A stretch of 64,000 nt of DNA from Sinohyriopsis cumingii (lineage: Eukaryota; Mollusca; Bivalvia; Unionida; Unionidae), in contig CM068827.1 in NCBI GenBank assembly GCA_028554795.2, positions 70,095,809-70,159,808 on the forward strand, read 5' to 3'. The translations under genes and the position numbers were made by a program. Positions 44,243 through 63,078 of the stretch are shown here, piece by piece; the first letter of the stretch is position 1, and the number at the start of each line of letters is the position of its first letter. The notes beneath the pieces were generated by a model. That model searched no databases and was not told the origin of the DNA. It worked only from the letters and a program-made list of their open reading frames with translations.

Positions 44243-44258
44243 GGCCCTGAAAAGGGCC
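44243..44258 (-). promoter_or_regulatory. Histone-type 3' stem-loop A
   Basis: On the minus strand: CCCAAAGGCCCTTTTCAGGG (start), giving a six-base-pair stem GGCCCT/AGGGCC and a TTTC loop, then AGCCA and a purine-rich CGAAAAGAGA element (44222-44231). It starts 26 nt after the stop codon of the small gene at 44284-44517. It fits the consensus of metazoan replication-dependent histone mRNA ends, including the CCAAA 5' flank. Confidence 0.88.
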
Positions 44259-44283
44259 TTTGGGTTTTATGTTAATGTATTCA

Positions 44284-44517
44284 TTAACATAAATGGCACC
44301 GCATTGGTCTTCTTCTTGTCCTTAGGCTGCGTCTTACTGTTGGTCCGTACATCAGCACTCTTTTCAGGCATCCTTGTCTTTCGACGTAGATCCTACGTAT
44401 CCACAGGCTGGTGTTTGTCCTGTGGACAACGGTCCACTTCGATCGGACATACATGAGCAAGTCTGTCCGAAACATCATGGAAGACACAAGGGTGGATGAC
44501 TCAACTGTAGTCCACAT
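44284..44517 (-). CDS. Small basic protein with histone-type mRNA end
   Basis: 77 residues, beginning MWTTVESSTLVSSMMFRTDL and ending in an Arg-rich tail (RRSLRTRRRPMRCHLC). It is not a histone and no family was recognised. A TATA box (CTATAAATAA, 44561-44570) lies 45 bp upstream of the ATG, and stem-loop A follows the stop, so the gene is complete with promoter and 3' end. It is transcribed outwards, towards the left end. It shares a 219-bp divergent promoter region with the gene at 44737. The short length lowers certainty, but the signals at both ends support it. Confidence 0.65.
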   Translation of the reverse strand: MWTTVESSTLVSSMMFRTDLLMYVRSKWTVVHRTNTSLWIRRIYVERQGCLKRVLMYGPTVRRSLRTRRRPMRCHLC

Positions 44518-44736
44518 CTTGAAGCGACGAGAACAGGTGAATCAATGCATTGAACGGCGCTTATTTATAGGCGGAGGAAGGATTGAAACGGATTGAGTTC
44601 ATTTACCAATCCGAACACGCGTTACAGAATTCAGTCAGCTCGCATCCAATCCGAAGAGAGCAGTCTGTGACGTCACGTAGTCAATATAGATTCGCTAGCG
44701 CTTGTGTGCAGTCAATCTATGCGACAGTGATTCAAC
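44518..44736. promoter_or_regulatory. Divergent promoter with CRE and CCAAT boxes
   Basis: Contains a leftward TATA box (44561-44570), two CCAAT boxes (44606-44610 and 44646-44650), a palindromic TGACGTCA (44668-44675, CREB/ATF-type) and a weak rightward AATATAGA (44683-44690). Divergent gene pairs with CCAAT and stem-loop ends recall histone gene pairs; this parallel is an inference. Confidence 0.55.
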
Positions 44737-45327
44737 ATGACGGAAACTCAGAAAACGATCCAGTGGGGTGCACCAGCAGGGGAGACTGCCCAAGGGAACC
44801 CGGACTTACTTTCAGAAGAGGTGAATTGGGATTTTGTGGATTTTCTCTCCTCGCAAGAATTTGTTCCGGAACCTTCGTTACTTTCTTCATTACCGCAAGT
44901 GGAGAATTTTAGACAGAGACAGAAAGAAGAATTGGAGAAATTTATACAACGACAAAAGGAAGCGGAACAGACTTTTCTCCTACAGCAACAGCAACAAGAA
45001 GAAGAGGTAAGAAAAAAACAACAGCAACAACAGCAACAACAGCAAGAAGAAGTAGCAGCAAAGAAACAAGAGGGTGAAAATCAAACGGTCACGATACTGT
45101 TAGACATTTTAGCGGAGTTAAGAAGTCTTAAACAAATGTATCAGACTTCTTTATCACGACCGAAGAGAATACGACCTTCCCGAGCCAAACATGTCAACCC
45201 TGTGACTAAGCCTACCGTACCACCCTTAGTGATTTCAACCCAATCATCATCATCATCAACATTACGCAGTCCAGAAGTAGGCCTTGGCCGTGGCAAAGGC
45301 TTAAGGCAGTTAAAATTGATTGCTTAA
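44737..45327 (+). CDS. Gln-rich coiled-coil protein with histone-type mRNA end
   Basis: 196 residues starting MTETQKTIQWGAPAGE. An acidic N-terminus (VNWDFVDFLSS) is followed by a long Gln/Glu coiled coil (residues 55-115, with CAA/CAG tracts at about 44980-45055), a Leu-rich helix (VTILLDILAELRSL), a basic patch (RPKRIRPSRAK) and a Ser/Thr tail. The mix of acidic, Gln-rich and basic parts would suit a transcription regulator, but no family was recognised. Stem-loop B follows 27 nt after the stop. It stands next to the CRE-bearing promoter. Confidence 0.7.
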   Translation: MTETQKTIQWGAPAGETAQGNPDLLSEEVNWDFVDFLSSQEFVPEPSLLSSLPQVENFRQRQKEELEKFIQRQKEAEQTFLLQQQQQEEEVRKKQQQQQQQQQEEVAAKKQEGENQTVTILLDILAELRSLKQMYQTSLSRPKRIRPSRAKHVNPVTKPTVPPLVISTQSSSSSTLRSPEVGLGRGKGLRQLKLIA

Positions 45328-45354
45328 ACTCACCCCTACACCATGAAGAAGAAA

Positions 45355-45370
45355 GGCCCTTTTCAGGGCC
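45355..45370 (+). promoter_or_regulatory. Histone-type 3' stem-loop B
   Basis: GGCCCT, loop TTTC, AGGGCC, then ACCCA; all positions agree with the classical GGYYYUUYUNARRRCCACCCA consensus. A purine-rich CGAAAAGAAA (45383-45392) starts 12 nt later at the place of the histone downstream element that pairs with U7 snRNA. Confidence 0.9.
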
Positions 45371-45621
45371 ACCCACATTTCTCGAAAAGAAATACAATTT
45401 CAATTTGCCAATAACTCAAGAAAAAAACTCACCCATGTTACCCTTTTAATACGTGTCTGTGTATGAGTGCGTGAGTGTAGCTTCTTATTTTAAAATCACA
45501 ACTCAAAGACACTTACCTTATATCATTCATTTATTCTTTTCTCCATTTTTTACAATCCAATTCACAATTTATAACACAACACTTTAATTAAAAGTTCATT
45601 AATTTCTTCTTTTCTCCTTGT
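45371..45621. other. Convergent 3' spacer
   Basis: Between the stem-loop of the + gene and the stop of the - gene. A minus-strand AATAAA lies at 45530-45535, about 90 nt past the CCHC gene stop, and probably serves as its polyadenylation signal. Confidence 0.5.
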
Positions 45622-46110
45622 TTAGTCTCTCCGTTTTTTGAATTTCTTCACCGTCACACTCTTTTCCTCTTCTTCCTCCTCGCTTTCTTCCCTTCTTCTT
45701 TTTTTCTCCTGTTTCTTTTTCTTCACCTGTCTTCTTTCTTCCTCAGAAGAATCCCTCTCTTCCTCAGAAGAATCCCTCTCTTCCTCTGAAGAATCCCTCT
45801 CTTCTTCTGAAGAATTCCTCTTTTCTTCTGACTCCTCTTGTTTCTTTTTTGGGCAATCTGGAGACCAATGTCCTTTTTCTTGACAATGATAACAGGTATC
45901 TTGACTTTTATCTCTTCTAGCCCCTTTTTTTCTTTTTTGACGGTCTGGACACTCTGAAGACCAATGCCCTTTCTTCTGACAGATATAGCAAGTATCTTGA
46001 CTTTTATCTCTAAAGGAAGGAGAGTAGTCCGTAGGCTGGTCTGAAGAGAATTTTCTAATGACCCCTCGCAAAGCTCTGACGAAACGTTCCATCTGGTCAG
46101 TCTCTTCCAT
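45622..46110 (-). CDS. CCHC zinc-knuckle protein with acidic Ser/Glu repeats
   Basis: 162 residues from the ATG at 46110 (a longer non-ATG frame starts at 46158). Two zinc knuckles of C-x2-C-x4-H-x4-C form, CYICQKKGHWSSEC (residues 41-54) and CYHCQEKGHWSPDC (73-86), resemble those of retroviral Gag and cellular RNA-binding proteins. A run of five EERDSSE units and a Lys/Glu-rich basic tail follow. The mixed acidic-basic repeats could be phosphorylated (casein kinase 2-like SSEEE sites). A TATA box (TATATAAAAG on the minus strand, 46164-46173) precedes the start by about 55 bp. Zinc knuckles of this kind are not part of the standard Maverick gene set; single-stranded nucleic-acid binding is inferred. 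Confidence 0.8.
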   Translation of the reverse strand: MEETDQMERFVRALRGVIRKFSSDQPTDYSPSFRDKSQDTCYICQKKGHWSSECPDRQKRKKGARRDKSQDTCYHCQEKGHWSPDCPKKKQEESEEKRNSSEEERDSSEEERDSSEEERDSSEEERRQVKKKKQEKKRRREESEEEEEEKSVTVKKFKKRRD

Positions 46111-46244
46111 CGTTGTGCTCGGCTCGAGAGTGAAATGAATAGTGAAAGGACAAGACACACACCCTTTTATATACGCTGGTCTGCTATGACTATAAAGTAG
46201 TTTATGGTGTTTGAACTTGAGTCATTTGACTTTTTGCTTTCAAG
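46111..46244. promoter_or_regulatory. Divergent promoter between CCHC and polymerase genes
   Basis: Two opposite TATA boxes: minus-strand TATATAAAAG at 46164-46173 and plus-strand TATAAAG at 46191-46197, about 48 bp before the polymerase ATG. Confidence 0.65.
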
Positions 46245-49200
46245 ATGAAACGATCCCATTCATTCGAGAAGAAAGAAGAAAGTAAGAGGCAGAAACGTGA
46301 TCTATCGCCTCGTACCAGGGCTGAGATCTTGGCACAAATTCATGCCAGTGATTTTGAAGAGGACATGAGTGAACCAGAATTTGAAACCTCTAAACCAAGT
46401 TCACCACCCTTAGTTAACCCTGAAAAGTACTATTCCATTCGAGAGACGGAAAAGCGCTCCTCTAGAAAATTTAGAACCACGGCTTACAAATACACGGTGA
46501 AGTTTAAAGATTTCAAGGCTGAAGTGCCGTTAGAGAAAGCAGAAGGGTTCATCACTGAGGTGTGGGATTCTTTGCTCACTACACTCAAGCGACAATGTCA
46601 ACCCAAAGAAGACGATCGCTTGAGACTTTCCATACAACACGACGGTTTGAAATCCCCTGTTTGGATCGAGTTTAGCACCCCTGCAGAATTAACTGCTTCC
46701 AAAGTCATGGACAAGATTCAACACGTACAACAATCTAATGATCAGTTTGACATCACCGATGGTAAAGCCACACTGGACATGACCCACGTCTCTCCTCCTC
46801 AAGGGACTGGACGCAAAAAGATGTTATTGGTGGACGACCTTCGCAACACCAAAACGAGTCTCGTCCGAATTAACAACCCTCATGACCAGATGTGTTTAGC
46901 CCGTGCCATCGTGGTGGGACGAACCTATGCCAACAAGAACGACACGGTAGAATGGAAAAGAACCTGGGACACTATTCAACGTTCCGACCGAGCCAAACAA
47001 CGAAACGAAGCAGAACTCCTGTTACAACAAGCCGGACTGCCCAAAGACACACCCTGTGGCATTCCCGAGATGCAAAAATTGCAAGATGTCCTAGCTCCAC
47101 GCTACACCTTGAAAGTGCACCCTCAAGAAGTGCGCGGACCTCTGTTGTTTCGAGGCCAAGACTTTAAGGACGGAAAATACATTCACCTTTATCATCACGA
47201 TGACCATTTCGATACCATTACCAGTATCACTGGATTCCTGGGATATGTTTATTATTGTGAGAAATGTGACTATGGTTATAATAATCGAGAGCAACACAAA
47301 CATTGTGGATGGAAATGCTCAGGATGTTTGGCCTCTCCACCCTGTCTGAGCGAAGAACCAGTGCCTTGTTCCACTTGTCTGCGCACGTTTGTCAGCCCTA
47401 CCTGTTACCAACAACATCTGAAAACGCAAGGTTCACAGAAGAAATGCGCTTGTCAACTGCTGAGATTGTGCCCTACGTGTGGACAAGGCATACTTACCAA
47501 TAATGCCAAGGCACACGTATGTCGAGGAAAGAAAAAATGTCACATTTGTCACCACATCGTGGACTTGGAACACCAATGCTACGTGCAAAAATACCAACCC
47601 CCACCAGAGAAAGAGGACGGTCACAAGAAGAAAGGCAATTTCATCTTTTTCGATTTCGAATGCATGCAAGAGACCGGCATTCACATTCCTAATTTTTGCG
47701 TGGCTCATCGAGCGTGCGAGAAGTGCATTCAAGAACCTATCTTCAGTCATTGCCCTCACTGCAGCAAGATTCCTGGAGGACGTGAAAAAATCTTTCGGGG
47801 ACCGAACACGTTAGCCGATTTTGCACAATGGGTCTTAGACCCCATCGACAAGACGTGGAGCCAAGAGGACATCGAACGTTACGGAGATTGTCATCGTCAT
47901 GCCACGGTGATGGCTCACAATTTCTCCGGATACGATGGACAGTTTCTTTTGAGGTACTATACGGAACAAGGCACCGAGCGTCCTAAAGTGACTTTGAACG
48001 GAGCCAAAATCATTTTCATGCAAGTGGGACAAGTACAGTTTAAAGATTCGATGAGCTATTTGGCCATGCCTTTGAGTCGAATGCCTAAAACGTTTGGAAT
48101 GACAGAAATGGCTAAAGGGTACTTTCCACACTTTTTCAATACGGAAGCCAATCAACACGCCGTTCTACCCCATTTACCTGAGGCTCACTATTACGACCCC
48201 GACAACATGCGTACCGAACAACGAGAAGCTTTCTACGCTTGGTACCAGGCTCACGCTTCGGACCCTTTCGACTTTCAGGAAGAAATGCTAAAGTATTGTC
48301 GTTCCGACGTGGACATTTTACGGCGTTGCTGTGGAAAATTTCGAGAACTGTTCATGGAACACGGAGGGGTCGATCCTTTGAAAGAAGCTTGCACCATTGC
48401 CAAAGCGTGTTCCTTAGTGTACCGCCAACGATTCATGCCTGAAAACACCGTGGCTGTCATCAGTCCTCAAACGACCCACTTTGTCAAACGTCAATACTCG
48501 GTCAAAGCCCTACGTTGGTTACATTACTTGTGCGACAAGGAAGACAAGTGGATTCAGCATGCCCGCAACGGAGGGGGCGAAAAGACCATCGGAACATATT
48601 CGGTCGATGGCTGGGACTTAGAAAACCCCAAGATCGTGTACGAGTTTAACGGTTGCTTATTTCACGGATGTCCCGTCTGTTACCCTGACCGTGGTACTAA
48701 AAATCAGTTTTTGCAACGAACCATGGAAGACTTGTACCAGGACACTTGTCAGCGACGCCTAAAGTTAGAACAGGAAGGATACCAAGTGGTGGAAATGTGG
48801 GAACACGAGTACGATCACCGTATGAAAACCGATCCCGAGTTTAAACGTCTCGTGGAAAGTTACCAGTTCATGGACCCGCTGAACCCGAGGGATAGTTTGT
48901 ACGGAGGAAGGACCAATGCCACCTGTTTGCTGTACCAAGCCGACGAAGAGAAAGGAGAAGAAATCAAATACTTGGACGTGTGTTCGCTGTATCCCTACGT
49001 GTGCAAATATTGTCGCTTTCCTGTAGGACACCCGCAATTGCTGACGGAACACATCGACCTGAAAAACATTCGACAATACGAAGGCTTGATTAAGTGTAAA
49101 GTTTTGCCTCCCACGAACCTATACCATCCCGTCTTACCTCACCATTGTCAAGGCAAACTGATGTTTCCCTTGTGCCGTACTTGTGCCGAAACGTGCAACC

Positions 49201-50279
49201 AAGATCAGCCTTGTCAGCACACCCAGGAAGAACGGGCCTTGACGGGAACCTGGGTCAGCGTAGAATTGTTCAAAGCTCTGGACATGGGATACCAACTGTT
49301 AGAAGTGTACGAAATTTGCCACTTTCCCAAGACACAACAGTATTGCAAGGGTGATCCCAGTCAGAAAGGCATTTTCGCAGACTACGTGGATGCCTTTTTG
49401 AAACTGAAGCAAGAAGCCAGCGGCTATCCTTCCTGGTGTCACACTCCCGAAGACCAAATACAATTCAAAGAGAAATACTACGAACAAGAAGGCATCACTT
49501 TAGACCACATCGAGAAAAACGAAGGCAGGCGATCGTTTGCCAAAGTGATGTTAAATTGCTTGTGGGGTAAAATGGCACAACGACCGTGTTTACCCAAGAC
49601 GGAATATTTGACAGAACCTTCCCGCTACTTCCAGATGATTCACGACAAAACCAAATACATGAAACACGTGGACGTCGTTCGAGAGAATTTGATCTTGGTC
49701 AATTACGAAGAAGATCTGGACTTTGTACAAGACGACCCTTTTGGAAATGTCATCATTGCGGCTTACGTGACAGCCCATGCTCGCTTAAAATTGTACGAAG
49801 CTTTAGAACTGTTAGAAGAACGCGTCCTGTACTTTGACACGGACAGTTGCATTTACATCCATCACCCGATTCAACATCACCCTAACATCGAAGGAGACCG
49901 TTTAGGAGCCTGGACAGACGAGCATCCCGACGACAAGATTCTAAGTTTCGTCAGTGGCGGTCCCAAAAATTACGGCTACGAATACCGGGACAAACAAGGA
50001 GAAGTGCACACGACGTGCAAAGTGAAAGGACTGACTCTGAATTATCGTACCAGTCGAGTGGTCAACTTTGGGGTATTGAAAGAAGCCTTGCAATCGGGAG
50101 AGGATGGAAACTTTAAAGTGACCACTCACCAACCGAACAAGATTGTACGTTTACCCACTCACCACATCGTCAGTCGGCCCTTGGAAAAAGTCTATCAAAT
50201 CGTGTACCAGAAGCGAGTTCGACTTCCCAATCATTTCACCTTACCGTATGGACACGTTGGTATAAAACATTGGTTGTAA
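46245..50279 (+). CDS. OTU domain - protein-primed DNA polymerase B fusion
   Basis: 1344 residues. Residues 195-335 hold an OTU-type cysteine protease pattern: DQMCLARA (Asp214, Cys217) and a later DDHFDTI (His321). Residues 338-447 are a set of Cys/His pairs forming zinc fingers. The exonuclease motifs are FFDFEC (Asp470, Glu472), HNFSGYDGQF (about 558-567) and YCRSDVD (684-690). The conserved YEFNGCLFHGCPVCYP block lies at 799-814. Polymerase motif A is DVCSLYP (Asp911), motif B KVMLNCLWGK (1100-1109), motif C YFDTDS (Asp1198, Asp1200). The enzyme would replicate the linear genome from a terminal protein. The OTU part could remove ubiquitin from host or viral targets; its activity is inferred from pattern only. 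The TATA box of the next gene lies inside the last codons. Confidence 0.95.
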   Translation: MKRSHSFEKKEESKRQKRDLSPRTRAEILAQIHASDFEEDMSEPEFETSKPSSPPLVNPEKYYSIRETEKRSSRKFRTTAYKYTVKFKDFKAEVPLEKAEGFITEVWDSLLTTLKRQCQPKEDDRLRLSIQHDGLKSPVWIEFSTPAELTASKVMDKIQHVQQSNDQFDITDGKATLDMTHVSPPQGTGRKKMLLVDDLRNTKTSLVRINNPHDQMCLARAIVVGRTYANKNDTVEWKRTWDTIQRSDRAKQRNEAELLLQQAGLPKDTPCGIPEMQKLQDVLAPRYTLKVHPQEVRGPLLFRGQDFKDGKYIHLYHHDDHFDTITSITGFLGYVYYCEKCDYGYNNREQHKHCGWKCSGCLASPPCLSEEPVPCSTCLRTFVSPTCYQQHLKTQGSQKKCACQLLRLCPTCGQGILTNNAKAHVCRGKKKCHICHHIVDLEHQCYVQKYQPPPEKEDGHKKKGNFIFFDFECMQETGIHIPNFCVAHRACEKCIQEPIFSHCPHCSKIPGGREKIFRGPNTLADFAQWVLDPIDKTWSQEDIERYGDCHRHATVMAHNFSGYDGQFLLRYYTEQGTERPKVTLNGAKIIFMQVGQVQFKDSMSYLAMPLSRMPKTFGMTEMAKGYFPHFFNTEANQHAVLPHLPEAHYYDPDNMRTEQREAFYAWYQAHASDPFDFQEEMLKYCRSDVDILRRCCGKFRELFMEHGGVDPLKEACTIAKACSLVYRQRFMPENTVAVISPQTTHFVKRQYSVKALRWLHYLCDKEDKWIQHARNGGGEKTIGTYSVDGWDLENPKIVYEFNGCLFHGCPVCYPDRGTKNQFLQRTMEDLYQDTCQRRLKLEQEGYQVVEMWEHEYDHRMKTDPEFKRLVESYQFMDPLNPRDSLYGGRTNATCLLYQADEEKGEEIKYLDVCSLYPYVCKYCRFPVGHPQLLTEHIDLKNIRQYEGLIKCKVLPPTNLYHPVLPHHCQGKLMFPLCRTCAETCNQDQPCQHTQEERALTGTWVSVELFKALDMGYQLLEVYEICHFPKTQQYCKGDPSQKGIFADYVDAFLKLKQEASGYPSWCHTPEDQIQFKEKYYEQEGITLDHIEKNEGRRSFAKVMLNCLWGKMAQRPCLPKTEYLTEPSRYFQMIHDKTKYMKHVDVVRENLILVNYEEDLDFVQDDPFGNVIIAAYVTAHARLKLYEALELLEERVLYFDTDSCIYIHHPIQHHPNIEGDRLGAWTDEHPDDKILSFVSGGPKNYGYEYRDKQGEVHTTCKVKGLTLNYRTSRVVNFGVLKEALQSGEDGNFKVTTHQPNKIVRLPTHHIVSRPLEKVYQIVYQKRVRLPNHFTLPYGHVGIKHWL
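50261..50270 (+). promoter_or_regulatory. TATA box inside the polymerase 3' end
   Basis: TATAAAACAT, 34-43 bp upstream of the ATG at 50304 and still within the polymerase coding sequence. Confidence 0.55.
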
Positions 50280-50303
50280 GAGGATAGTTACCCCACCAGA
50301 AAG

Positions 50304-50762
50304 ATGACTTCGCCACAGCAAGAATCGAGTGAGAAACCCGATGAGAACTCCAAGTTCAAACCCTACCATTTTCCAGTCTTCTTACCTGACTATTGTGATT
50401 GTGCCCGTCGATTGGACACGTTTCAGAAATGGTCTACGAATAGGGAAGGATTACCTTCTTCGCATGTTTTAGCTAGAACAGGATTTGTCTACTTGGGACC
50501 TGAGTCAGGATTGGGATACGAGGTACAGTGTTTCGCTTGCGGACTGAAGTTACGAATGGATCTATGTATCTATAAAGATTCAGCTATTCTGGAGCATACT
50601 CGATGGTCTCCGCACTGCCCTTACCTTTCTATGGCCTTTCCACCCATTACACTACGGTACAATGTTGACGGTACCTTAGAGACGGTACCTTCCAGAACAG
50701 GACATAAAAAACGTGAAAAAGGAAAGATGTACAAGTTGGAGACTGCATTGAGACTAGTATAA
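50304..50762 (+). CDS. BIR-domain protein 1 (IAP-like)
   Basis: 152 residues with one BIR domain (about 22-110): HFPVFLPDYCDC...ARRLDTFQKW, LARTGFVYLG, and the zinc ligands Cys76, Cys79, His98 and Cys105 in CFAC...EHTRWSPHC. The spacing between the second Cys and the His is 18, slightly longer than the usual 16, and the Trp that normally follows the CxxC is absent. No RING domain follows, unlike cellular IAPs. BIR domains bind caspases or IAP-binding motifs, so a block of host cell death is the likely role. It is followed directly by a second BIR gene, and its stop codon lies inside the TATA box of that gene. Confidence 0.88.
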   Translation: MTSPQQESSEKPDENSKFKPYHFPVFLPDYCDCARRLDTFQKWSTNREGLPSSHVLARTGFVYLGPESGLGYEVQCFACGLKLRMDLCIYKDSAILEHTRWSPHCPYLSMAFPPITLRYNVDGTLETVPSRTGHKKREKGKMYKLETALRLV

Positions 50763-50766
50763 AAAA
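50758..50766 (+). promoter_or_regulatory. TATA box overlapping the BIR1 stop codon
   Basis: TATAAAAAA; the TAA at 50760-50762 ends the BIR1 gene. The ATG of BIR2 is 56 bp downstream. Confidence 0.65.
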
Positions 50767-50821
50767 GGGGCTATGGTCAAGATCGATAGTTCATTGTGAC
50801 TACCAAGACCGAGCGAACAAG

Positions 50822-51565
50822 ATGAATACTTTGAAAAAGACATCGTTTCAGTTTGGGGATTGTAAAAAAGTTGTATCTTCCTCTAGTGTGACTAATACTG
50901 GATGGATAAGACCCATGCATTGCGACGGAAAATGTCCGGAAGGAAACTGCGATTGTCCATGTGGTTACCATTGTAATTGCGTAACGGAGTTTGCAGACGA
51001 GTGCGATTGTGAGCCTTGCGATGGGACCGATGCTGTACCTTGTGACCTGAGCGATGCCGTAAAGCATCATGGGAACTTTAGTACCCCTACCCCTATCATG
51101 GAAAGTGATGCTGTGCGTGTCAGACCTGTGGGATGCGAAAGTGATGCTGCTCGTCCTCTTGGACATTTTACTGGGTTTCGTTTTAAAGGGGAATGTCCAC
51201 CTTCACGTCTACCCCCTTACGGATGTCATCCAGCCCTGAGCAAACTCCTACCTATGTCACTCAACCCTCATCGAAACGAACCTGTGAAAGACGAATATTC
51301 GTTTCCTGTGCGTTTGTCGGAATACTGCGACTTTGAAAATCGTCTTCAATCGTTCAAAGGAAAATGGCCAAAGTATCTGGGAGGACCGACCCCCGAAGAA
51401 TTAGCCAGAGCCGGATTTTTCTACTTGGGCGAAGGAGATAAAGTCAAGTGCTTCAGTTGCGGTGTGTCACTTCACCACTGGGAACCGCAAGATTCGGCCT
51501 ACGTTGAACATGCTCGATGGTCACCGAATTGTCATTACTTACCCTTAGTGGGACCGAGACATTGA
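50822..51565 (+). CDS. BIR-domain protein 2 with Cys-rich N-terminus
   Basis: 247 residues. The C-terminal half is a canonical BIR domain (about 158-245) with Cys210, Cys213, His230 and Cys237 spaced C-x2-C-x16-H-x6-C, the LARAGFFYLG core and the Trp220. Residues 34-74 form a Cys cluster (CDGKCPEGNCDCPCGYHC and so on, 12 cysteines in about 40 residues) that looks metal-binding and is not part of known IAPs. The central part has short imperfect repeats with 'SDAV/SDAA'. No RING. Caspase or apoptosis inhibition is inferred from the BIR; the Cys cluster may bind metal or a partner. It is a paralogue of the preceding gene but has diverged strongly. Confidence 0.88.
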   Translation: MNTLKKTSFQFGDCKKVVSSSSVTNTGWIRPMHCDGKCPEGNCDCPCGYHCNCVTEFADECDCEPCDGTDAVPCDLSDAVKHHGNFSTPTPIMESDAVRVRPVGCESDAARPLGHFTGFRFKGECPPSRLPPYGCHPALSKLLPMSLNPHRNEPVKDEYSFPVRLSEYCDFENRLQSFKGKWPKYLGGPTPEELARAGFFYLGEGDKVKCFSCGVSLHHWEPQDSAYVEHARWSPNCHYLPLVGPRH

Positions 51566-51593
51566 AGTAACTTCTTACCATAATAATCTGTTC

Positions 51594-52049
51594 ATGGATA
51601 CTTTACAAGAGAACATTCGTGCTTTGCCTGTGGAGTTGAGAGAACGCATTTATCGAGAACTGGTCAAAATACAAGTGAAACGTAAAGAACAATTGCATCC
51701 GATACGTCACCGGTGTTTGAACCACTGGTACCTTCAGGCTATACAAGGACTGATTCAATTGAAAGTGTTCCATTGGACAGACATTGATCAACGACCTCCT
51801 GGTTATAAAAAGGAATGGTTCGGTATGGACGATTCTATCTACTACATTGTAAACGTACTGCATCGAATTCCAGAGGAAGAGTTAACGAATTACCAACATC
51901 TTTCACGCAATGTCAACTTGGTGAAAGAGGAAACTTCTGAACGAATTGTAATGTGTAGATTAGTGACTCAACGATTTAAATTTGACACTGAAGTGAAACC
52001 ATGTTTGTGCAAAGAGTACATTTCTTGTGTCAGACCAAAGAGGATTTAG
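51594..52049 (+). CDS. F-box-like protein A
   Basis: 151 residues beginning MDTLQENIRALPVELRERIY. The N-terminal IRALPVELRERIYRELVK fits the short helical core (LPxEL...I...L) of an F-box, which docks to SKP1 in SCF ubiquitin ligases. The rest of the protein, which would choose the target, has conserved HWY and Trp-Asp features but no known fold. The next gene is a tandem copy. No clear TATA box was found, so the two may share a transcript with BIR2. The F-box call is based on a short motif and is tentative. Confidence 0.7.
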   Translation: MDTLQENIRALPVELRERIYRELVKIQVKRKEQLHPIRHRCLNHWYLQAIQGLIQLKVFHWTDIDQRPPGYKKEWFGMDDSIYYIVNVLHRIPEEELTNYQHLSRNVNLVKEETSERIVMCRLVTQRFKFDTEVKPCLCKEYISCVRPKRI

Positions 52050-52061
52050 TATGACCTATTC

Positions 52062-52580
52062 ATGGATACTTTGCTAGAGAACATTCGTGCTTTGCCTGTG
52101 GAGTTGAGAGAACGCATTTACCGAGAGCTGGTCAAAATACAAGTCAAACGTAAAGAACAATTGCATCCGTTACGTCACCAGATCTTTAACCACTGGTACC
52201 TGAATGGTATAAGAGAACTGATTCGTCAGAAATTCTTTCAATGGTCAGACATAGTTCAACACTTTGAGGTCGCTAATGATCGACACGTTCATAATTATGG
52301 TTACTTCGAGATTCACCTAGTGCAACGCATTGAGGAAGACAAGTTAAAGGATTACAAACATATTTTACGTGGAATCTACTTAGAGGAAGAGGAAACACCT
52401 AAACGAACTCTGACGTTTCGGTTACAGTATGCAAGATTTAGATTCCCTACTGGAGAACGAAGATCTCTGGCTAGAAAGTACGTCTATTGCATCCGAAAAA
52501 AAGAGAATATAAAAACAGGCTGCCATGCCACGGTTTATGTCACATGTCATCCAACAGATTCCGTGGAAGGAACTCAATGA
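52062..52580 (+). CDS. F-box-like protein B (tandem duplicate)
   Basis: 172 residues; the first 50 or so are almost identical to protein A (MDTLLENIRALPVELRERIY), and the DNA around both ATGs is also nearly identical (TTCATGGATACTTT), so the duplication is recent or the N-terminus is kept the same by selection. The later part has diverged and is about 20 residues longer. The constant N-terminus with a variable C-terminus suits adaptor proteins that keep the ligase contact and change the target. Confidence 0.72.
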   Translation: MDTLLENIRALPVELRERIYRELVKIQVKRKEQLHPLRHQIFNHWYLNGIRELIRQKFFQWSDIVQHFEVANDRHVHNYGYFEIHLVQRIEEDKLKDYKHILRGIYLEEEETPKRTLTFRLQYARFRFPTGERRSLARKYVYCIRKKENIKTGCHATVYVTCHPTDSVEGTQ

Positions 52581-53250: not shown

Positions 53251-53262
53251 AAAAAAACATTC

Positions 53263-53337: not shown

Positions 53338-54096
53338 ATGGCTACCTCTGCTGTCTCTGCTCCCTCTTCCTCTACTGTCAAAGTCATCGACGAACACTTA
53401 GATCGTGCCAGTTGGGAGGCTTTGTATCTTCGCCATCCCTTTAACATGCTCATTGCTGGACCTAGCGGTTCAGGCAAAACCGAATTCGTCAAACGTTTGA
53501 TCGAACATAAACATCATTTGATCGATCGGCCCCCTCAACGGATCGTGTGGTGTTACAAAGAGTGGCAATCGGCGTACAGCCTCTTGCGTGAAAGTCAAGG
53601 CGATTCCATCGTGTTTGTGGAAGGCATTCCTAAAGAAGACGATGGCATCGTCTCTGACTCCCGTCTAACCCATTTGGTCATTTTCGACGACATGTTAGGA
53701 GAAGACGAAGAAGAAATTAAATTGTGGTTTACGCGCAAAGGGCATCACCGTAATGCCAGTGTCGTTTACATCACCCAAAATTTGTTTCAACAAAGTAAAG
53801 CCCATCGCACCATCAGTCTCAATGCGCATTACGTGGTCTTGTTTAAAAGCCCTCGAGATAAATCGCAAGTGCAAGTCTTAGCCAAACAGTTAGGAACGCC
53901 TTGGCTGACTCAGGCGTACGACGATGCCACTCAAACGCCACACGCCTATTTACTCGTCGATTTGAAACCTACGACCCCCGAGGATTTGCGATTTCGTACC
54001 CACTTGTTTCACCACTGGTGCCAAGACGGAGGGCCTGTCCTGTACACGTCTCCGTCCTCGACTTCATTTCACTCCTCCCATGAAAAAAATCTATAA
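53338..54096 (+). CDS. A32/FtsK-like genome-packaging ATPase
   Basis: 252 residues. Walker A GPSGSGKT (41-48), Walker B LVIFDDML (113-120, with Asp117/Asp118), and VVYITQN (142-148) as sensor, followed by ISLNAHYVVLFKSPRDKSQV and a C-terminal TPHAYLLVDL. These are the marks of the packaging ATPases shared by adintoviruses, Mavericks, virophages and NCLDVs. The protein would drive DNA into the procapsid. The intact partner of the broken ATPase at 8525-9273, but clearly a different lineage. Its stop codon is inside the next gene's TATA box. Confidence 0.95.
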   Translation: MATSAVSAPSSSTVKVIDEHLDRASWEALYLRHPFNMLIAGPSGSGKTEFVKRLIEHKHHLIDRPPQRIVWCYKEWQSAYSLLRESQGDSIVFVEGIPKEDDGIVSDSRLTHLVIFDDMLGEDEEEIKLWFTRKGHHRNASVVYITQNLFQQSKAHRTISLNAHYVVLFKSPRDKSQVQVLAKQLGTPWLTQAYDDATQTPHAYLLVDLKPTTPEDLRFRTHLFHHWCQDGGPVLYTSPSSTSFHSSHEKNL

Positions 54097-55534: not shown

Positions 55535-55539
55535 AAAGG
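55530..55539 (+). promoter_or_regulatory. TATA-like box overlapping the core 2 stop codon
   Basis: GATAAAAAGG; the TAA at 55532-55534 is the core 2 stop. ATG of the next gene at 55584. Confidence 0.45.
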
Positions 55540-55583
55540 CCATCGGAAGTCCCAAGATCTCAAAATTCACCCCTGACAACCCC

Positions 55584-56234: not shown

Positions 56235-56255
56235 CACACCAACACAAAATAAAAA

Positions 56256-57368
56256 ATGGAAAAAGTCTTAGCCAGCATTTACTACGATCCCTCCCATCCT
56301 GCAGGTTACGCAGGAGTTCAAAAATTGTATCGTGCTGCCAAAACTCGACTGAAAAGTCTCCGTTTACCTCAAGTGCAACGATGGTTACAAGAACAAGCTA
56401 CCTACACTTTACACAAACCCATTCGACGCAAGTTTGCCAGAAGTCGCACCCGAGTGGAAGGCATAGATCATCAATGGCAAGCCGATTTAGCCGATGTCTC
56501 TCATTTAGCCAGCTACAATCGTGGCTACAAATATTTGTTTTGTGTCATCGACGTCTTTTCCAAATTTGCCTGGGTCGTGCCCTTGACTTCCAAATCCAGC
56601 AGCGAGTTAGTGCGAGCCCTGCAACGAGTGTTGAAACAAAGCGGCCGTCACCCTCTTCGATGGCAAACGGACAAAGGCACCGAATTTCTGAACCAGGCTT
56701 TCCAAAAAGAATTAAAGAAACGTGACATTCATTTTTTTACCACCGAGAATCCCGAAACCAAAGCCAGCATCGTGGAACGTTTTCAACGCACTTTGAAAGA
56801 ACGCATGTGGAAATATTTTACGCATCACCACACTCTGAAGTACATCGACATCTTACCTCACCTGGTGCAAGCGTACAACCAATCTTACCATCGAAGCATC
56901 GGACGTGCCCCGCAAGACGTGACTCCCGAGAACGAAGTGCTGGTGTTTGAGCGCCTGTTTGGTACGTCCCCGACGAGGGCTGTCCCCAAGAAAAGTGGAG
57001 AGTTGACCGTAGGAGATTGGGTGCGCATTGGCAAAACCAAACGCACTTTCGACAAAGGTTACTTACCTAACTGGACGACCGAATTGTTTCGCGTCACTGG
57101 ACGAGTGCATGGCCGTCATCCTGCCGTCTATAAATTGGAAGACATGAACGGAGAAGTACTCAAAGGAACGTTTTATTTGCCCGAGTTACAACGTGTCACC
57201 AAAAAAGAAGACGACGTGTACGACATCGAAAGCATTCTGGAACGCAGAACCCGTAAAGTGGGCAAACGACGTGTCAAAGAAGTCAAAGTACGTTGGAAAG
57301 GATATCCACCCAGTTTCGATTCTTGGATCGACGCTTCGCAAGTCATCGACTATAAAAAGAAGAAGTGA
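56256..57368 (+). CDS. Chromodomain-bearing rve integrase
   Basis: 370 residues. The N-terminus (residues 9-29) has the conserved YYDPSHPAGYAG region. The DDE core is Asp77 (WQADLAD), Asp139 (RWQTDKGTEF) and Glu174 (ASIVERFQRTLKERM), with 34 residues between the second Asp and Glu, as in retroviral integrases. The C-terminal 50 residues (YDIESILERR, VRWKGYPPSFDSWID) are a chromodomain, which in chromoviral integrases targets marked chromatin. The enzyme would insert the element in host DNA and probably makes a short target duplication. There is no clear TATA box before it; only 21 bp separate it from the previous stop. Confidence 0.96.
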   Translation: MEKVLASIYYDPSHPAGYAGVQKLYRAAKTRLKSLRLPQVQRWLQEQATYTLHKPIRRKFARSRTRVEGIDHQWQADLADVSHLASYNRGYKYLFCVIDVFSKFAWVVPLTSKSSSELVRALQRVLKQSGRHPLRWQTDKGTEFLNQAFQKELKKRDIHFFTTENPETKASIVERFQRTLKERMWKYFTHHHTLKYIDILPHLVQAYNQSYHRSIGRAPQDVTPENEVLVFERLFGTSPTRAVPKKSGELTVGDWVRIGKTKRTFDKGYLPNWTTELFRVTGRVHGRHPAVYKLEDMNGEVLKGTFYLPELQRVTKKEDDVYDIESILERRTRKVGKRRVKEVKVRWKGYPPSFDSWIDASQVIDYKKKK

Positions 57369-57373
57369 CCATC

Positions 57374-58719: not shown

Positions 58720-58726
58720 GTAAGTC

Positions 58727-59143
58727 ATGTATCCAGTGTACCGAGGGGTGGCTCGACAGCGAGGACACGGTTTAGGAGACATGTTAAAATCGGCCTTTCG
58801 TTCGGTGGCCCCGGTGTTGAAACCGATGGTGACACGCGGATTGCACGCCTTGAAAGATGCGGCACTGACGCAAGGCAAAGAATTTCTCCAAAATGTCATC
58901 ATCGACAAACAAAACCCTAAAGAAGCCTTCATGAGGGCAGGCAAAAATGTCTTGCTGCAAACGGGTAAAGACATTTTGGGCCGACGAGACACACCTATAA
59001 ATGCCCTGCACGATACCGAGTCAAGCATTCAGCAAGGACAAGGCAGAAAGAGACGAAGAAGAAAACACCCCTTCACCAGACTTCAAGCGAGAAAGGCCAA
59101 GAAAAGAAGAACCGTACGAGACTTAGACGTTTTCGATTATTGA
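58727..59143 (+). CDS. Basic pVI/pX-like capsid-associated protein
   Basis: 138 residues. The N-terminus is Gly-rich and amphipathic (GHGLGDMLKSAFRSVAPVLK), resembling the membrane-active part of adenovirus pVI. A helical middle (KDAALTQGKEFLQNVI) and a very basic end (GRKRRRRKHPFTRLQARKAK) follow. It sits between the penton-type and major capsid genes, where such a protein is always found in this virus group. Endosome exit and DNA contact are inferred by analogy. Confidence 0.8.
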   Translation: MYPVYRGVARQRGHGLGDMLKSAFRSVAPVLKPMVTRGLHALKDAALTQGKEFLQNVIIDKQNPKEAFMRAGKNVLLQTGKDILGRRDTPINALHDTESSIQQGQGRKRRRRKHPFTRLQARKAKKRRTVRDLDVFDY

Positions 59144-59158
59144 GAAAAGAGACAAAAA

Positions 59159-60469
59159 ATGATGCACCGAGAATCTTGCGCCTGTTCCAAGACGGAACTG
59201 GATCTGTTTGCCATGCCCCCCACCATGATGACCATGCAAGAATCCCAATGGGTGGAATTTCACCCCGTCTCCTCATTGACAGCCTCAGCTCCCATCGAGT
59301 TTGAAATCAAAGGACAGCCCGAAGATTACATCGATCTGAATAGCAGTTACTTGTACTTGAAAGTCAAACTTGTCGATGAGGACAATTCGACCCTAGATGG
59401 CGATGAGGTAATAGCTCCCGTCAACAATTTCATGCATTCCTTGTTTAGCGGAGTGGACTTGTACTTGAACAACAAACTGGTCAGCAGCAGCATGGATACT
59501 TACCCTTATCGAGCGTACCTGGAAAATCTCTTGACGTACGGAATAGACGCCAAGAACACTCATCTCAATGCCTGTGTGGTATGGGAAGCTGACGAAGCTG
59601 AAAAGTTTGAAAATTTAGAAACTGATGAAAAGAAAGAAAACAATGACGGATTTATAGAACGAAGAAAGAGAATCAAAGATGGACAGAGTTTAGAACTGAT
59701 GGATCGTTTACATCTGGACATGTGGTTGCAAGAGAAATATTTACTAAACGGGGTCAATGTCCGCCTGAGACTGAATCGGAGCAGTGCCGCTTTCCATTTG
59801 ATAGGTAATACTGTTTGCAAAACTGTCATCGAGGAAGCCAGGCTCTACGTACGTCGTGTGGAAGTGTTACCTAAAGTGGGTAACGATATCAGTCAAACGT
59901 TGAGCAGAACGACAGCCAAGTATCCCATACGACGCGTGGAAGTGAAAACCTTCACCATTCCCAAGGGACAACGATCCATGATCGAAGATCATCTGTTCCA
60001 AGGACAGCTACCCAAGCGTTTGATCGTTGGTATCGTCGAAAATGAAGCCTTCAACGGAGCTTTGGCTAAAAATCCTTTCTACTTTCAACACTTTGGCGTG
60101 TCCAAGATCGAAGTCAGTCGCGATGGCAAGACCTTGTGTACCCGACCCTTTGAGCCTGACTTTGAGAAGAAGAATTACTTGAGATCGTACTTGTCCCTGT
60201 ACGAAGCCACCGGTCAGTTAGGAACCAACACCAGTCACGGTATTACGTACGAGGATTATGTAGGAGGCTATGCTTTGTGGGCTTTCGATTTCACTCCAGA
60301 CCAAGGCAGCGACGAGGGACATTTCCACCCTATAAAATCAGGCCAGATTCGTGTGGAAATTCAGTTTGCAAACCGAGACCCTGATGTAACGGTGAACGTC
60401 ATCCTGTATGCAGAATTCGATAATACCATAGAAATCAACAGTTTGAGAGAAGTCATCCTAGATTACTAG
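59159..60469 (+). CDS. Major capsid protein (double jelly roll type)
   Basis: 436 residues from the first of two adjacent ATGs. The N-terminal CSKTELDLFAMPPTMMTM and the segments SSLTASAPIEFEIKG and MHSLFSGVDLYLNN are the marks of the major capsid family often annotated in animal genomes as 'F54H12.2-like', which is the hexon-type double jelly roll protein of adintovirus/Maverick elements. The second half has YPIRRVEVKTFTIPKGQ, which begins the second barrel. The frame is intact. It would form the T-number lattice of trimers. Confidence 0.94.
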   Translation: MMHRESCACSKTELDLFAMPPTMMTMQESQWVEFHPVSSLTASAPIEFEIKGQPEDYIDLNSSYLYLKVKLVDEDNSTLDGDEVIAPVNNFMHSLFSGVDLYLNNKLVSSSMDTYPYRAYLENLLTYGIDAKNTHLNACVVWEADEAEKFENLETDEKKENNDGFIERRKRIKDGQSLELMDRLHLDMWLQEKYLLNGVNVRLRLNRSSAAFHLIGNTVCKTVIEEARLYVRRVEVLPKVGNDISQTLSRTTAKYPIRRVEVKTFTIPKGQRSMIEDHLFQGQLPKRLIVGIVENEAFNGALAKNPFYFQHFGVSKIEVSRDGKTLCTRPFEPDFEKKNYLRSYLSLYEATGQLGTNTSHGITYEDYVGGYALWAFDFTPDQGSDEGHFHPIKSGQIRVEIQFANRDPDVTVNVILYAEFDNTIEINSLREVILDY

Positions 60470-60475
60470 AAAGCC

Positions 60476-60961
60476 ATGGAAGACTGTTGTCCCTCTTTAC
60501 CTAGTGAAGAAACTTTGGAGATGGAATGTAAGGAGACCGTGGAAGGAGAAGAAGATATCATGATGAAGTCGAGATGGCCAGAACAAGAAGCCCATTTAGT
60601 CTCCTGTTTTGCCAAACACTTGGTCGACAAAATAACAGAATTGATCAAGAAAAATTGTTATGGATGTCAAAACGATCATCCCAGTCAAATTCAACACGAT
60701 AAATGCCTGATGTTGAGTCAAGAAGAAAAATTGGACGAGTATCTGGACGAAGCTTGGAGTCTCATCTCAAACAAAGACGTGTTGCACCAGTGGTATAAAG
60801 ACTTGCGTGAACATTCTTGTCCACCATTAACCACTCAAGAGATCCATCGTATCGAAGCTCTCCTGAATCAGAGTGAGGAAACAGAACGAATAACCGTTTA
60901 TTCGTCAGACATTTTCAAGCAAAAAGTCAGGATCGAATTGACGACTTATTATTACCTGTGA
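60476..60961 (+). CDS. Conserved Cys/His protein between capsid and protease genes
   Basis: 161 residues. The central motif CYGCQNDHPSQIQHDKC (about residues 61-77) with the downstream helix DEYLDEAW recurs in Maverick-type elements next to the capsid genes. The Cys/His pattern may bind zinc. The N-terminal 30 residues are acidic. No role is known; the ATG is six bases after the capsid stop, so the two are likely co-expressed. Confidence 0.75.
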   Translation: MEDCCPSLPSEETLEMECKETVEGEEDIMMKSRWPEQEAHLVSCFAKHLVDKITELIKKNCYGCQNDHPSQIQHDKCLMLSQEEKLDEYLDEAWSLISNKDVLHQWYKDLREHSCPPLTTQEIHRIEALLNQSEETERITVYSSDIFKQKVRIELTTYYYL

Positions 60962-60982
60962 AGAAGAAAAAAACACAAATCA

Positions 60983-61543
60983 ATGGATACCTGGGAACTT
61001 TATTACCTTTTGAACCATAGTTCGTATACGGCTTCTTGGAATCCTGTCGTCTGTGCTAAAGATGAACTCCCTCATCGCAAACCTAAAGACCATCAAGCTT
61101 ACGTGATCAACACGGACGAAAGTCATCTCCCAGGAACCCACTGGGTAGCCGTCTACTTTCCTCAAGAAGGATGTGTGGAATATTTCGATTCGTACGGATT
61201 GCCCCCTTTGGAAGACGATATCATCGACTTTATGAGAAGAAATGCTCAAACCACCCGATTCAATAACGTGAAATTACAAGGCACAGATTCCTTGGTGTGT
61301 GGACAGTACTGTGTGTATTTTCTGCATCATCGCAGCCTGGGCTATTCCTTAGAACATTTAGTGACTCATTTTGATCCTCGTTCTTCTGCTAGAAACGATG
61401 TGAAAGTAGATCGATGGTTTTGTGACCATTATGCTTATCTTTTGTCTCAAGCTAGGAAACGTAGTGTCCATCAATGGCCTAATGATTTCCAACAGTGGAA
61501 ATCACAGTTTCATTCACAACGTTGTCAGCCTTGTTTAAAGTAG
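60983..61543 (+). CDS. Adenain-type cysteine protease
   Basis: 186 residues. Catalytic residues fit adenain in kind and spacing: His53 in GTHWVAVYF, Asp69 in VEYFDSYG, Gln99 and Cys106 in LQGTDSLVCGQYC (Gln to Cys seven apart, as in the adenoviral enzyme). The C-terminal half is short, with RWFCDHYAYLLSQ. It would cut capsid and core precursors (for example those at 54138-56234 and 58727) during maturation. The enzyme family also includes SUMO/NEDD8 proteases, but length and context point to the virion type. AATAAA at 61659-61664 follows. Confidence 0.94.
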   Translation: MDTWELYYLLNHSSYTASWNPVVCAKDELPHRKPKDHQAYVINTDESHLPGTHWVAVYFPQEGCVEYFDSYGLPPLEDDIIDFMRRNAQTTRFNNVKLQGTDSLVCGQYCVYFLHHRSLGYSLEHLVTHFDPRSSARNDVKVDRWFCDHYAYLLSQARKRSVHQWPNDFQQWKSQFHSQRCQPCLK

Positions 61544-61780
61544 ATCGTATTTGAAGAAAAAAATGTTTGTGATTTGAAAAAAATTGTTAGATGTTATAGT
61601 GTTGGATTAATGTTAAAAAATGTTAGAGTTGTTGTTGTTTAGTGTTAAGTGATTTTTGAATAAAAATGTTGTGTTTTGAAAAAAATGCCTTTGTGGTTTG
61701 TTTAGCTATAAGAATATTGGATTGATGCTCTTTCATTTCTTACTATCCCTCTCATGAACGTTGCGGCTCGAAAACCGTGT
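61544..61780. other. 3' region of the structural gene block
   Basis: T/G-rich untranslated sequence with AATAAA at 61659-61664. It ends the structural block and precedes the terminal gene cassettes. Confidence 0.6.
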
Positions 61781-61811
61781 GGGGGGATGTTTTCCTTCAC
61801 GTCCGCGCTTT
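61781..61811 (+). promoter_or_regulatory. Shared upstream promoter element, copy 1
   Basis: GGGGATGTTTTCCTTCACGT followed by CCGCGCTTT. The downstream TATA place is degenerate here (TTAACTTTAAG). ATG at 61874. Confidence 0.75.
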
Positions 61812-61873
61812 AACTTTAAGAACCGGGTTGTTCCCAGTCTAGCCATCCATTGTCGACTCATCCTCCTAAGAAG

Positions 61874-62071
61874 ATGTGCTCCAAACTAGCTAAGCTCAAC
61901 GAAGCCTACGTGAATTTGCATAGGGTCAGACACAGTCTGATACCGAAGCCAGAAGAAATAGAGAATGTGAGAATGTTAAAAATCACTGAAGACCTGATAG
62001 AAGAGCTCTTCAGAGAAGAAATGAACAAGGAAAAAGAAGAATGGACAGAGAAGTACAGACTTCAGAGACAG

Positions 62072-62103
<32 letters not shown>

Positions 62104-62230
62104 ACCTGAAGCTGACAGAGGCTTTGTCGATTGTCGTATCGACACCAAAGAATTCTTCTTCTCTTTCCGAAGAAGCAGACCTATTGCCAGAAAGTCTATC
62201 CTCAGAGGACATCGCATTCTTAGAAACTAA
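61874..62230 (+). CDS. Terminal cassette gene 1: polyQ coiled-coil protein
   Basis: 118 residues starting MCSKLAKLNEAYVNLHRVRH (a TTG-started frame reaches back to 61850). A helical, heptad-bearing N-terminal part (ITEDLIEELFREEMNKEKEE) leads into a glutamine tract of about 12-14 residues (62065-62105), then a basic end (RRSRPIARKSILRGHR). Stem-loop C follows 37 nt after the stop. Layout, promoter and 3' end match the next gene, so these are duplicated cassettes though the proteins are only weakly alike. Not a histone; no family was recognised. Confidence 0.65.
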
Positions 62231-62267
62231 AAAAGAATGCCATAGCAAAAAAAAACAACAAAAAAAC

Positions 62268-62283
62268 AGCCCTTTTCAGGGCT
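62268..62283 (+). promoter_or_regulatory. Histone-type 3' stem-loop C
   Basis: Stem AGCCCT/AGGGCT with TTTC loop, followed by ACCCCA; purine-rich TAGAAAAGAAG at 62296-62306. The downstream flank ('TTTGCCAATGTG...GTGTGAAAATAAACACTAA') is repeated after stem-loop D. Confidence 0.88.
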
Positions 62284-62309
62284 ACCCCAATACTCTAGAA
62301 AAGAAGTAA

Positions 62310-62554
62310 TGATCCATTTGCCAATGTGTGTAGGTAGAGAAGTGTGAAAATAAACACTAACTCTTTCTTAAAAATTTTGAGGGTATGTGTTAGTGTTTGT
62401 AAGTGATAAAGTAGGTTGGTGTGGATAGTAGATTAAAATGATGTTAGTTTTTTTTTTTTTTTTGGGCTGCTTGAGGTGTATATTTGGGGTTAGATTGGAT
62501 TGCTTTGAGTATGTGGATAGTCTATTGAAGTGATGGGTAGCATAAAAAAGTGAG
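62310..62554. other. Spacer between terminal cassettes 1 and 2
   Basis: Begins with a conserved 3' flank also found after stem-loop D, then T-rich and G/T-rich DNA with a poly-T run near 62448-62463. No gene. Confidence 0.5.
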
Positions 62555-62670
62555 CGAGTGTTTCTTTTAGGTCCGCGCGTTGTTGTTGTTTTTTGGTCAT
62601 GATCTAGGTAAGATGAATTTTATGTTTTTAGGGGGATGTTTTCCTTCACGTTCGCGCTTTCAGTATAAAT
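62555..62670 (+). promoter_or_regulatory. Shared upstream promoter element, copies 2a and 2b, with TATA
   Basis: A degenerate copy (TTTCTTTTAGGTCCGCGCG) at 62560-62580 and a full copy GGGGATGTTTTCCTTCACGT/TCGCGCTTT at 62632-62660, then TATAAAT at 62664-62670. Between them is GGTCATGATCTAGGTAAGAT, repeated before cassette 3. Confidence 0.78.
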
Positions 62671-62726
62671 TGAAACTCGTTCGGCAGTCCAACTACCCTT
62701 GTTGATTGATCAACACAGCCAGAAGA

Positions 62727-63035
62727 ATGACTAGCAGAATAGTGAAACTGTTAGAACTCCAGATGCACCTGGAATATGCCAGGCGGATAGTAAACGAACT
62801 ATCAGCGGAGGCTATCGTAGAAGAAGCAAGAATAAAGAAGGAAGAAGAGGAGAGAAGACAGAGGGAAGAGGAGGAAAAGAAAAGAGAAGAGATGATGTCG
62901 TTTAATATTCCTGAAACAGAGGATTGGGCTGCTGAAGCGAATCATCCTCCCTCTGCGCTCCCCAGAAGAAAGGTGAAAGAAGACTGGGGAAGAAGATGCG
63001 TGTGCGGCGCCAGGCCAGGAAGGTGCAACCATTAG
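62727..63035 (+). CDS. Terminal cassette gene 2: coiled-coil protein
   Basis: About 102 residues starting MTSRIVKLLELQMHLEYARR (ATG at about 62727; an earlier ATT/ATC-type start in frame at 62706 is less likely). The middle is a nearly pure Glu/Arg/Lys helix (about residues 38-60, KKEEEERRQREEEEKKREE), and the end is Cys/Arg-containing (RRCVCGARPGRC). Stem-loop D follows 27 nt after the stop. TATA is about 57 bp upstream of the ATG. It has the same organisation as cassette gene 1. Confidence 0.65.
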   Translation: MTSRIVKLLELQMHLEYARRIVNELSAEAIVEEARIKKEEEERRQREEEEKKREEMMSFNIPETEDWAAEANHPPSALPRRKVKEDWGRRCVCGARPGRCNH

Positions 63036-63062
63036 ATAGGTGCATCTGGAGTTTAAAAAAAC

Positions 63063-63078
63063 AGCCCTTTTCAGGGCT
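63063..63078 (+). promoter_or_regulatory. Histone-type 3' stem-loop D
   Basis: Stem AGCCCT/AGGGCT with TTTC loop, followed by ACCCA, with AGAAAAGAAA at 63091-63100, 12 nt after the stem. Confidence 0.9.

Follow-up and report, generated by a model that had tools for sequence, protein, structure and literature searches.

Histone pre-mRNAs of metazoa mature along a route of their own: the stem-loop-binding protein (SLBP) engages a 3' hairpin, the U7 small nuclear ribonucleoprotein (snRNP) engages a histone downstream element (HDE), and the RNA is cleaved a few bases past the stem, which is canonically followed by a tail of the ACC(C)A type. Histone mRNAs that end in this way are S-phase regulated. 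Here we describe signals of the same kind behind a set of short, non-histone terminal genes of a Polinton, an integrated virus-like element, in the bivalve Sinohyriopsis cumingii. The stretch analysed, hereafter the window, comprises 64,000 nucleotides (assembly GCA_028554795.2, contig CM068827.1, positions 70,095,809 to 70,159,808 of the forward strand), and the stem-loops and purine runs found in it are best read as working histone-type 3'-end signals.

One account of histone pre-mRNA processing treats SLBP, FLASH, U7 and the HDE, and calls core histone mRNA the only known protein-coding mRNA of animals in which a 3' stem-loop replaces the poly(A) tail (PMC6303110). A related case among the animal DNA viruses is the adomavirus 'Histoid', a histone-like protein presented in PMC11071296. 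The likeness is that of an animal DNA virus with a histone-related part; in adomaviruses, however, it is the protein that is histone-like, whereas in the Polinton it is the RNA 3' signal only. The terms stem-loop and polyadenyl are absent from the main text of PMC11071296 and PMC11071308. A limited literature search, which included term searches within these two papers and within PMC6713331 and PMC2276518, found no viral or transposon histone stem-loop serving as an mRNA end and no paper pairing a histone stem-loop with polinton.

With the metazoan histone mRNA 3' end, as represented by the Rfam family Histone3 (RF00032), the Polinton signals share the 6-bp stem, the 4-nt loop, the A-rich 5' flank, a purine-rich HDE that begins 13–14 nt past the stem and a stop-to-stem gap of 24–37 nt; they differ in that they lie on non-histone genes of an integrated virus-like element, where the processing is putative. 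With Polinton/Maverick elements and adintoviruses, the element shares a family B DNA polymerase (PolB), an rve integrase with a chromodomain, an A32/FtsK-like ATPase, a capsid-like protein, a weakly matched adenain-like protease, long terminal inverted repeats (TIRs) and a 6-bp target-site duplication (TSD), and it differs from them by the histone-type 3' ends on its terminal genes. That it is a Polinton follows from PolB, the rve integrase, the 293-bp TIRs and the 6-bp TSD.

Stem-loops and purine runs in the window copy

Each of the five sites in the window copy forms a 6-bp stem with a 4-nt pyrimidine-rich loop, on the same strand as the small gene that it follows (g1–g5; Table 1). The hairpins of g1 and g2 read GGCCCU-UUUC-AGGGCC and those of g3 and g4 AGCCCU-UUUC-AGGGCU, with A-U as the outer pair; the purine run is GAAAAGA(A/G), set in the context CTCGAAAAGA in g1, g2 and g5. 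The stem is followed by ACCCA in g2 and g4, by ACCCC in g3 and by AGCCA in g1 and g5. Three of the five sites (g1, g2 and g5) pass the Histone3 gathering score of 34 bits; the E values that Table 1 gives for the other two come from a 21-kb search. An earlier note on this DNA had drawn attention to four hairpins, and each of them lies at the coordinates and on the strand that it gave. The distance of 26–38 nt from the stop codon that it reported fits the 25, 27, 37 and 27 nt counted between stop and stem, its spacing of 12–13 nt from the stem to the purine run has to be lengthened by one nucleotide, and its statement that the encoded proteins are not histones agrees with a Pfam scan of the genes next to the stem-loop sites, which gave no histone match. 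The set of signals is larger than the four first noted, with a fifth site on g5 and, in sister copies of the element, others on a further terminal gene, g6.

A search pattern that combines the stem and loop with AAAAGA, composed once the sites were known, has four matches in 43976–64000 and none in 3950 dinucleotide-matched simulated sequences, and chance hairpins were rejected on this count. A looser stem-loop pattern that tolerates two mismatches shows no excess over the whole window (14 observed, 12.6 expected). Two further explanations were also rejected: histone genes at the sites, given the Pfam result and the lack of a core histone in all 68 loci described below, and a pure TIR feature, given that only the first and fifth hairpins lie in TIRs and the other three outside them.

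Sister elements across the host genome

The host genome (2.90 Gb, 1138 contigs) was searched with Histone3, and the 75 best of 589,472 candidates, which are no census, were all above the cut-off. Of these, 68 were taken as loci and seven were left out; in some cases two loci may represent the opposite ends of a single element. All 68 carry genes of this Polinton, and core histones are absent from every one (tblastn, E ≤ 1e-3). A model, R1, built from 14 sites including the g3 site of the window, returned 156 sites in 70 sources, its building sites included, with real sites scoring 54–80 bits. The closest same-strand gene upstream is g1 at 50 sites, g2 at 44, g4 at 22, g5 at 14 and g3 at 11, which makes 141 of the 156, and the protease gene, 811 nt off, at one; the remaining 14 comprise 12 with g6, one with the last g3 residues in 65 nt, and one with only 23 nt. 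Over the 108 sites with a placeable gene end, the stop-to-stem gap has a median of 21–31 nt, depending on the gene, with outliers at 60, 420 and 833 nt.

This arrangement bears on the view that the hairpins are not mRNA 3' ends at all, and act instead as SLBP or U7 decoys or as replication or packaging elements at the termini. The two hairpins within the TIRs would suit such a role, but the three outside them, the position, mostly just behind a same-strand terminal gene, and the conservation of the HDE as well (see below) make it very unlikely.

The site by which each locus had been picked was then set aside, and same-strand stem-loops were counted in the 90 nt beyond every gene end that had this much room. 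Among these loci, themselves chosen by stem-loop score, a stem-loop follows 75 of 75 terminal-gene ends (g1 18, g2 26, g3 10, g4 20, g5 1) and 0 of 17 core-gene ends: 14 of a zinc-knuckle (CCHC) gene, which are all of its copies with the gene end visible, two of the major capsid protein and one of the protease. One partial polymerase match was dropped, the query being the first 500 residues only. The earlier note had proposed to look in related elements for the stem-loop beside the stops of homologous genes, and it recurs there at every one of these 75 ends.

Histone-type patterns occur in viral_contigs too, in 1, 14 and 21 stretches. The single stretch resembles phage coding DNA by eye, and the best R1 score among the other 35 is 23.9 bits, against the 54–80 bits of real sites; several of the 35 form complete 6-bp hairpins away from long open frames. 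No relatives of the capsid protein were found in viral_contigs. In a collection of bacterial genomes, distant Polinton-type capsid genes (30–31%) are present in two contigs, L010 and L011, of a metagenome-assembled genome of the bacterium Limnohabitans, where they are perhaps eukaryotic contamination.

Comparison with host histone genes

The host's own signals were taken from one histone repeat unit, which holds H3, H4, H2B, H2A and H1. The comparison, which the earlier note had called for, showed stem-loops and HDEs of the Polinton type. All five gene ends have a Histone3 match (35.0–39.4 bits) and stop-to-stem gaps of 27–38 nt. The stem is GGCCCU/AGGGCC in four of them and GGUCCU/AGGACC, a compensated change, in H1, and the hairpin of H2B matches those of g1, g2 and g5 in every letter. 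The HDE reads CTAGAAAAGA in H1, H2B, H3 and H4, identical to the context of the g3 and g4 elements, and CCCGAAAAGG in H2A. The letters of both stem and HDE largely agree between host and Polinton, and the R1 model, built on the Polinton, recovers all five histone ends at 36–58 bits.

Conservation and covariation

Within each gene class, mean pairwise identity is 0.94–0.98 for the stem-loop and 0.94–1.00 for the HDE, against 0.70–0.89 for the spacer that joins them and 0.44–0.81 for the 3' untranslated region (UTR) before the stem-loop; it is 0.78–0.89 for the 22 nt that follow and 0.67 to 0.94 for the coding sequence. The columns of the AAAAGA core keep their commonest letter in 148–150 of 150 aligned sites. 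Pairing was assessed over 122 distinct rows drawn from the best 150 of the 156 R1 sites, with 98.2% of cells paired. At the outer pair, 88 rows have GC, 28 have AU and 2 have GU, with the remaining 4 unpaired, and the other five pairs are nearly invariant; the covariation test that the earlier note had suggested did reveal a compensatory change, at this outer pair, and the covariation score exceeds that of all 500 shuffles. With the host histone ends added there are 9 distinct rows, 100% paired, and two co-varying pairs, a result matched by 25 of 500 shuffles.

Agreement with the host genes in stem and HDE is also what would be expected if a histone 3' end had once been captured and then inherited by the copies without being used. 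Such passive carry-over seems most improbable. Identity is higher in stem-loop and HDE than in spacer and UTR, at a median synonymous divergence of 0.68 in g4, 0.92 in g1 and 1.33 in g5, though of only 0.10 in g2. Moreover, the signal is kept by gene families that have no detectable similarity to one another. A blastp comparison of g1–g5 among themselves found none at E up to 1, so that the signal sits on separate families, and g5 shares with g6 a stretch of 11 residues (E 0.2). The g6 family, lysine-rich and likewise furnished with the stem-loop, is found in sister elements at 11 loci (L001, L005, L006, L021, L025, L027, L030, L044, L046, L049 and L059).

Putative 3'-end formation of terminal-gene mRNAs

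The mRNAs of the terminal genes are very probably matured by the host SLBP/U7 histone pathway, a judgement that covers use of the pathway and leaves S-phase coupling aside. It derives from the presence of the signal, its association with a single class of genes, the conservation of those elements that the processing machinery recognises and the likeness to host histone signals. The interpretation in the earlier note as histone-type processing is thus supported at the level of sequence, its S-phase part being an inference. The short genes g1–g5, and g6 in sister copies, would be transcribed; host SLBP would bind the hairpin of the RNA and host U7 snRNP its GAAAAGA element; and the RNA would be cut a few bases past the stem without polyadenylation, while the core replication and capsid genes would have 3' ends of a different type. 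What the element probably gains is strong expression of the terminal proteins, which are probably early or regulatory, at times and in places of high SLBP and U7 processing. S-phase cells, and perhaps also germ cells and early embryos, would offer that setting, and there an integrated element would have to multiply. Given what is established about the processing of histone pre-mRNAs, we infer the use of SLBP and U7, the non-polyadenylated ends and the coupling to S phase, and it appears reasonably likely that the mRNAs of the terminal genes are poly(A)-minus, bound by SLBP and in step with host DNA replication.

The same pathway might, on the other hand, serve the element as a compact, poly(A)-independent terminator that provides SLBP-based processing, export and translation without useful cell-cycle timing, and that remains effective where polyadenylation is blocked or faces competition. 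Here the pathway is shared and the purpose differs, and the confidence placed in the one overlaps with that placed in the other; as an account of purpose we regard the terminator as a tentative possibility. These genes are short, and about 60 nt past the stop suffice for the signal. Among 18 genes that lack the stem-loop signal, 13 have no AATAAA or ATTAAA within 250 nt past the stop and five have one, so that several kinds of 3' end are possible. The restriction of the signal to terminal genes suggests, by contrast, regulation of a gene class over compaction, and the S-phase regulation of host histone mRNAs with the same end points the same way.

Several observations weigh against maturation by the host pathway. 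Stem-loop score governed the choice of the 68 loci, and their elements are related to one another; the figure of 75 of 75 terminal-gene ends does not therefore extend to elements in general, and removal of the picked site from the comparison of terminal and core genes does not remove a preference for well-kept elements. In the two Limnohabitans contigs with distant Polinton-like genes, a Histone3 match is absent at E up to 1. The pairing alignment was fitted to the structure, two-sided change is confined to one pair, and neither this count nor the number of pair types (4) is above that of the shuffles. The tail right after the stem is unevenly kept (identity 0.71–1.00), and the host tails are ACACA in two genes and ACAAA, ATACA and ACTTT in one each, against ACCCA or AGCCA-like tails in the Polinton. 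An AATAAA lies 108–119 nt after the stops of g3 and g4; some transcripts of these two genes may be polyadenylated, with the AATAAA as a fallback. Finally, no host U7 gene was found in a family search that scored 65 of 801960 candidates, and HDE pairing was in consequence judged solely by likeness to host HDEs. Searches with U7 patterns gave 20 and 22 matches, and the 3 and 10 more of these that were read included no convincing U7 hairpin. By eye, two loci from the U7 search (L110 and L120) resemble decayed antisense ends of g4.

If the terminal genes do use the host pathway, histone mRNAs would no longer be the sole metazoan mRNAs of the poly(A)-minus, SLBP-bound kind, and a lineage of animal DNA viruses or transposons would have moved a defined class of its genes onto the pathway of replication-dependent histone mRNAs, with the mRNA 3' end, and not the promoter, as the link between viral expression and S phase. 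The 156 sites recovered to date from a single genome, across several gene families, would offer a comparative system for the requirements of SLBP and U7, and annotation by histone stem-loop will catch viral genes as well.

Terminal genes and other features of the element

Homologues of g1 and of g2 number 46 each among the 68 loci, those of g3 10, of g4 20 and of g5 13, and g5 has six homologues in the protein database. The median ratio of nonsynonymous to synonymous divergence (dN/dS) is 0.12 for g1, 0.38 for g2, 0.21 for g4 and 0.22 for g5 (seven open reading frames, ORFs); the 0.26 for g3 comes from one pair only. The terminal gene cassettes seem to be exchangeable between elements. The synonymous divergence of g1 stands far above that of the adjacent g2, as if the ends recombine among elements.

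A promoter motif scan, confined to the window copy and made without a control, placed TATAAA at -52 to -63 in g1, g4 and g5 and a CACGTNCGCGC box upstream of g3, g4 and g5. A promoter-like repeat block that contains CACGTNCGCGC lies before g3, g4 and g5 at 61777–61820, 62626–62669, 63303–63346 and 63372–63415, and in two of its four copies TATAAA follows.

Table 1. Features of the Polinton and its terminal genes, in window coordinates (the window ends at 64000)
Feature	Position	Strand	Evidence and remarks
Polinton element	43976–64374		20,399 bp; right part of window, runs past window end
Left TIR	43976–44268		293 bp, inverted, 99.66% identical to right copy
Right TIR	64082–64374		293 bp; beyond window end
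TSD TAGGGC	43970–43975 and 64375–64380		6 bp; at both element borders
g1 HDE-like purine run GAAAAGAG	44222–44229	-	sequence
g1 histone-type stem-loop	44243–44258	-	RF00032 35.6 bits, above cut-off; in TIR; 25 nt past stop
g1, terminal gene, 77 amino acids (aa)	44284–44517	-	ORF; no Pfam match
g1/g2 shared divergent promoter region	44518–44736		TATA-type boxes, two CCAAT boxes, TGACGTCA site
g2, terminal gene, 196 aa	44737–45327	+	ORF; no Pfam match above cut-off
g2 histone-type stem-loop	45355–45370	+	RF00032 38.7 bits, above cut-off; 27 nt past stop
g2 HDE-like purine run GAAAAGAA	45384–45391	+	sequence; conservation
Family B DNA polymerase, core gene	46245–50279	+	Pfam PF03175, E 2.6e-42
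Packaging-type ATPase, core gene	53338–54096	+	Pfam Pox_A32, above cut-off at E 1.4e-7
Integrase with chromodomain, core gene	56256–57368	+	Pfam rve (PF00665) 2.8e-14, Chromo 1.1e-7
Probable major capsid protein, core gene	59159–60469	+	no Pfam match
Adenain-like protease, core gene	60983–61543	+	Pfam Peptidase_C5, E 0.013, below cut-off
g3, terminal gene, 118 aa	61874–62230	+	ORF; no Pfam match
g3 histone-type stem-loop	62268–62283	+	RF00032 27.7 bits, E 3.4e-4, below cut-off; 37 nt past stop
g3 HDE GAAAAGAA in context CTAGAAAAGA	62298–62305	+	same context as host histone genes
g4, terminal gene, 102 aa	62727–63035	+	ORF; no Pfam match above cut-off
g4 histone-type stem-loop	63063–63078	+	RF00032 31.5 bits, E 1.4e-5, below cut-off; 27 nt past stop
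g4 HDE GAAAAGAA in context CTAGAAAAGA	63092–63099	+	same context as host histone genes
g5, terminal gene, 199 aa	63468–64000 in window	+	ORF; stop at 64067, beyond window
g5 histone-type stem-loop	about 64092–64107 (L012 896–941)	+	RF00032 35.6 bits; in right TIR

The Polinton is inserted inside a tandem repeat. Its capsid-like protein has 864 homologues; in the top 120, most of those assigned to a species are 'F54H12.2-like' proteins of bivalves, a label that we take to mark Polinton capsid proteins and on which the naming of the capsid gene is based. The CCHC protein noted above (45622–46110, minus strand), with serine/glutamate-rich repeats, adjoins the polymerase gene. An inhibitor-of-apoptosis-type protein with a BIR domain (PF00653, 1.3e-13) is encoded at 50304–50762, and the protein at 50822–51565 that adjoins it is BIR-like by eye. 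Two small genes, at 51594–52049 and 52062–52580, are tandem duplicates whose starts are 85% identical over 210 nt. Outside the Polinton, the window holds a tRNA match above the Rfam cut-off at 12848–12920 on the plus strand and long ORFs at 3937–5799 (620 aa) and 18741–20738 (665 aa).

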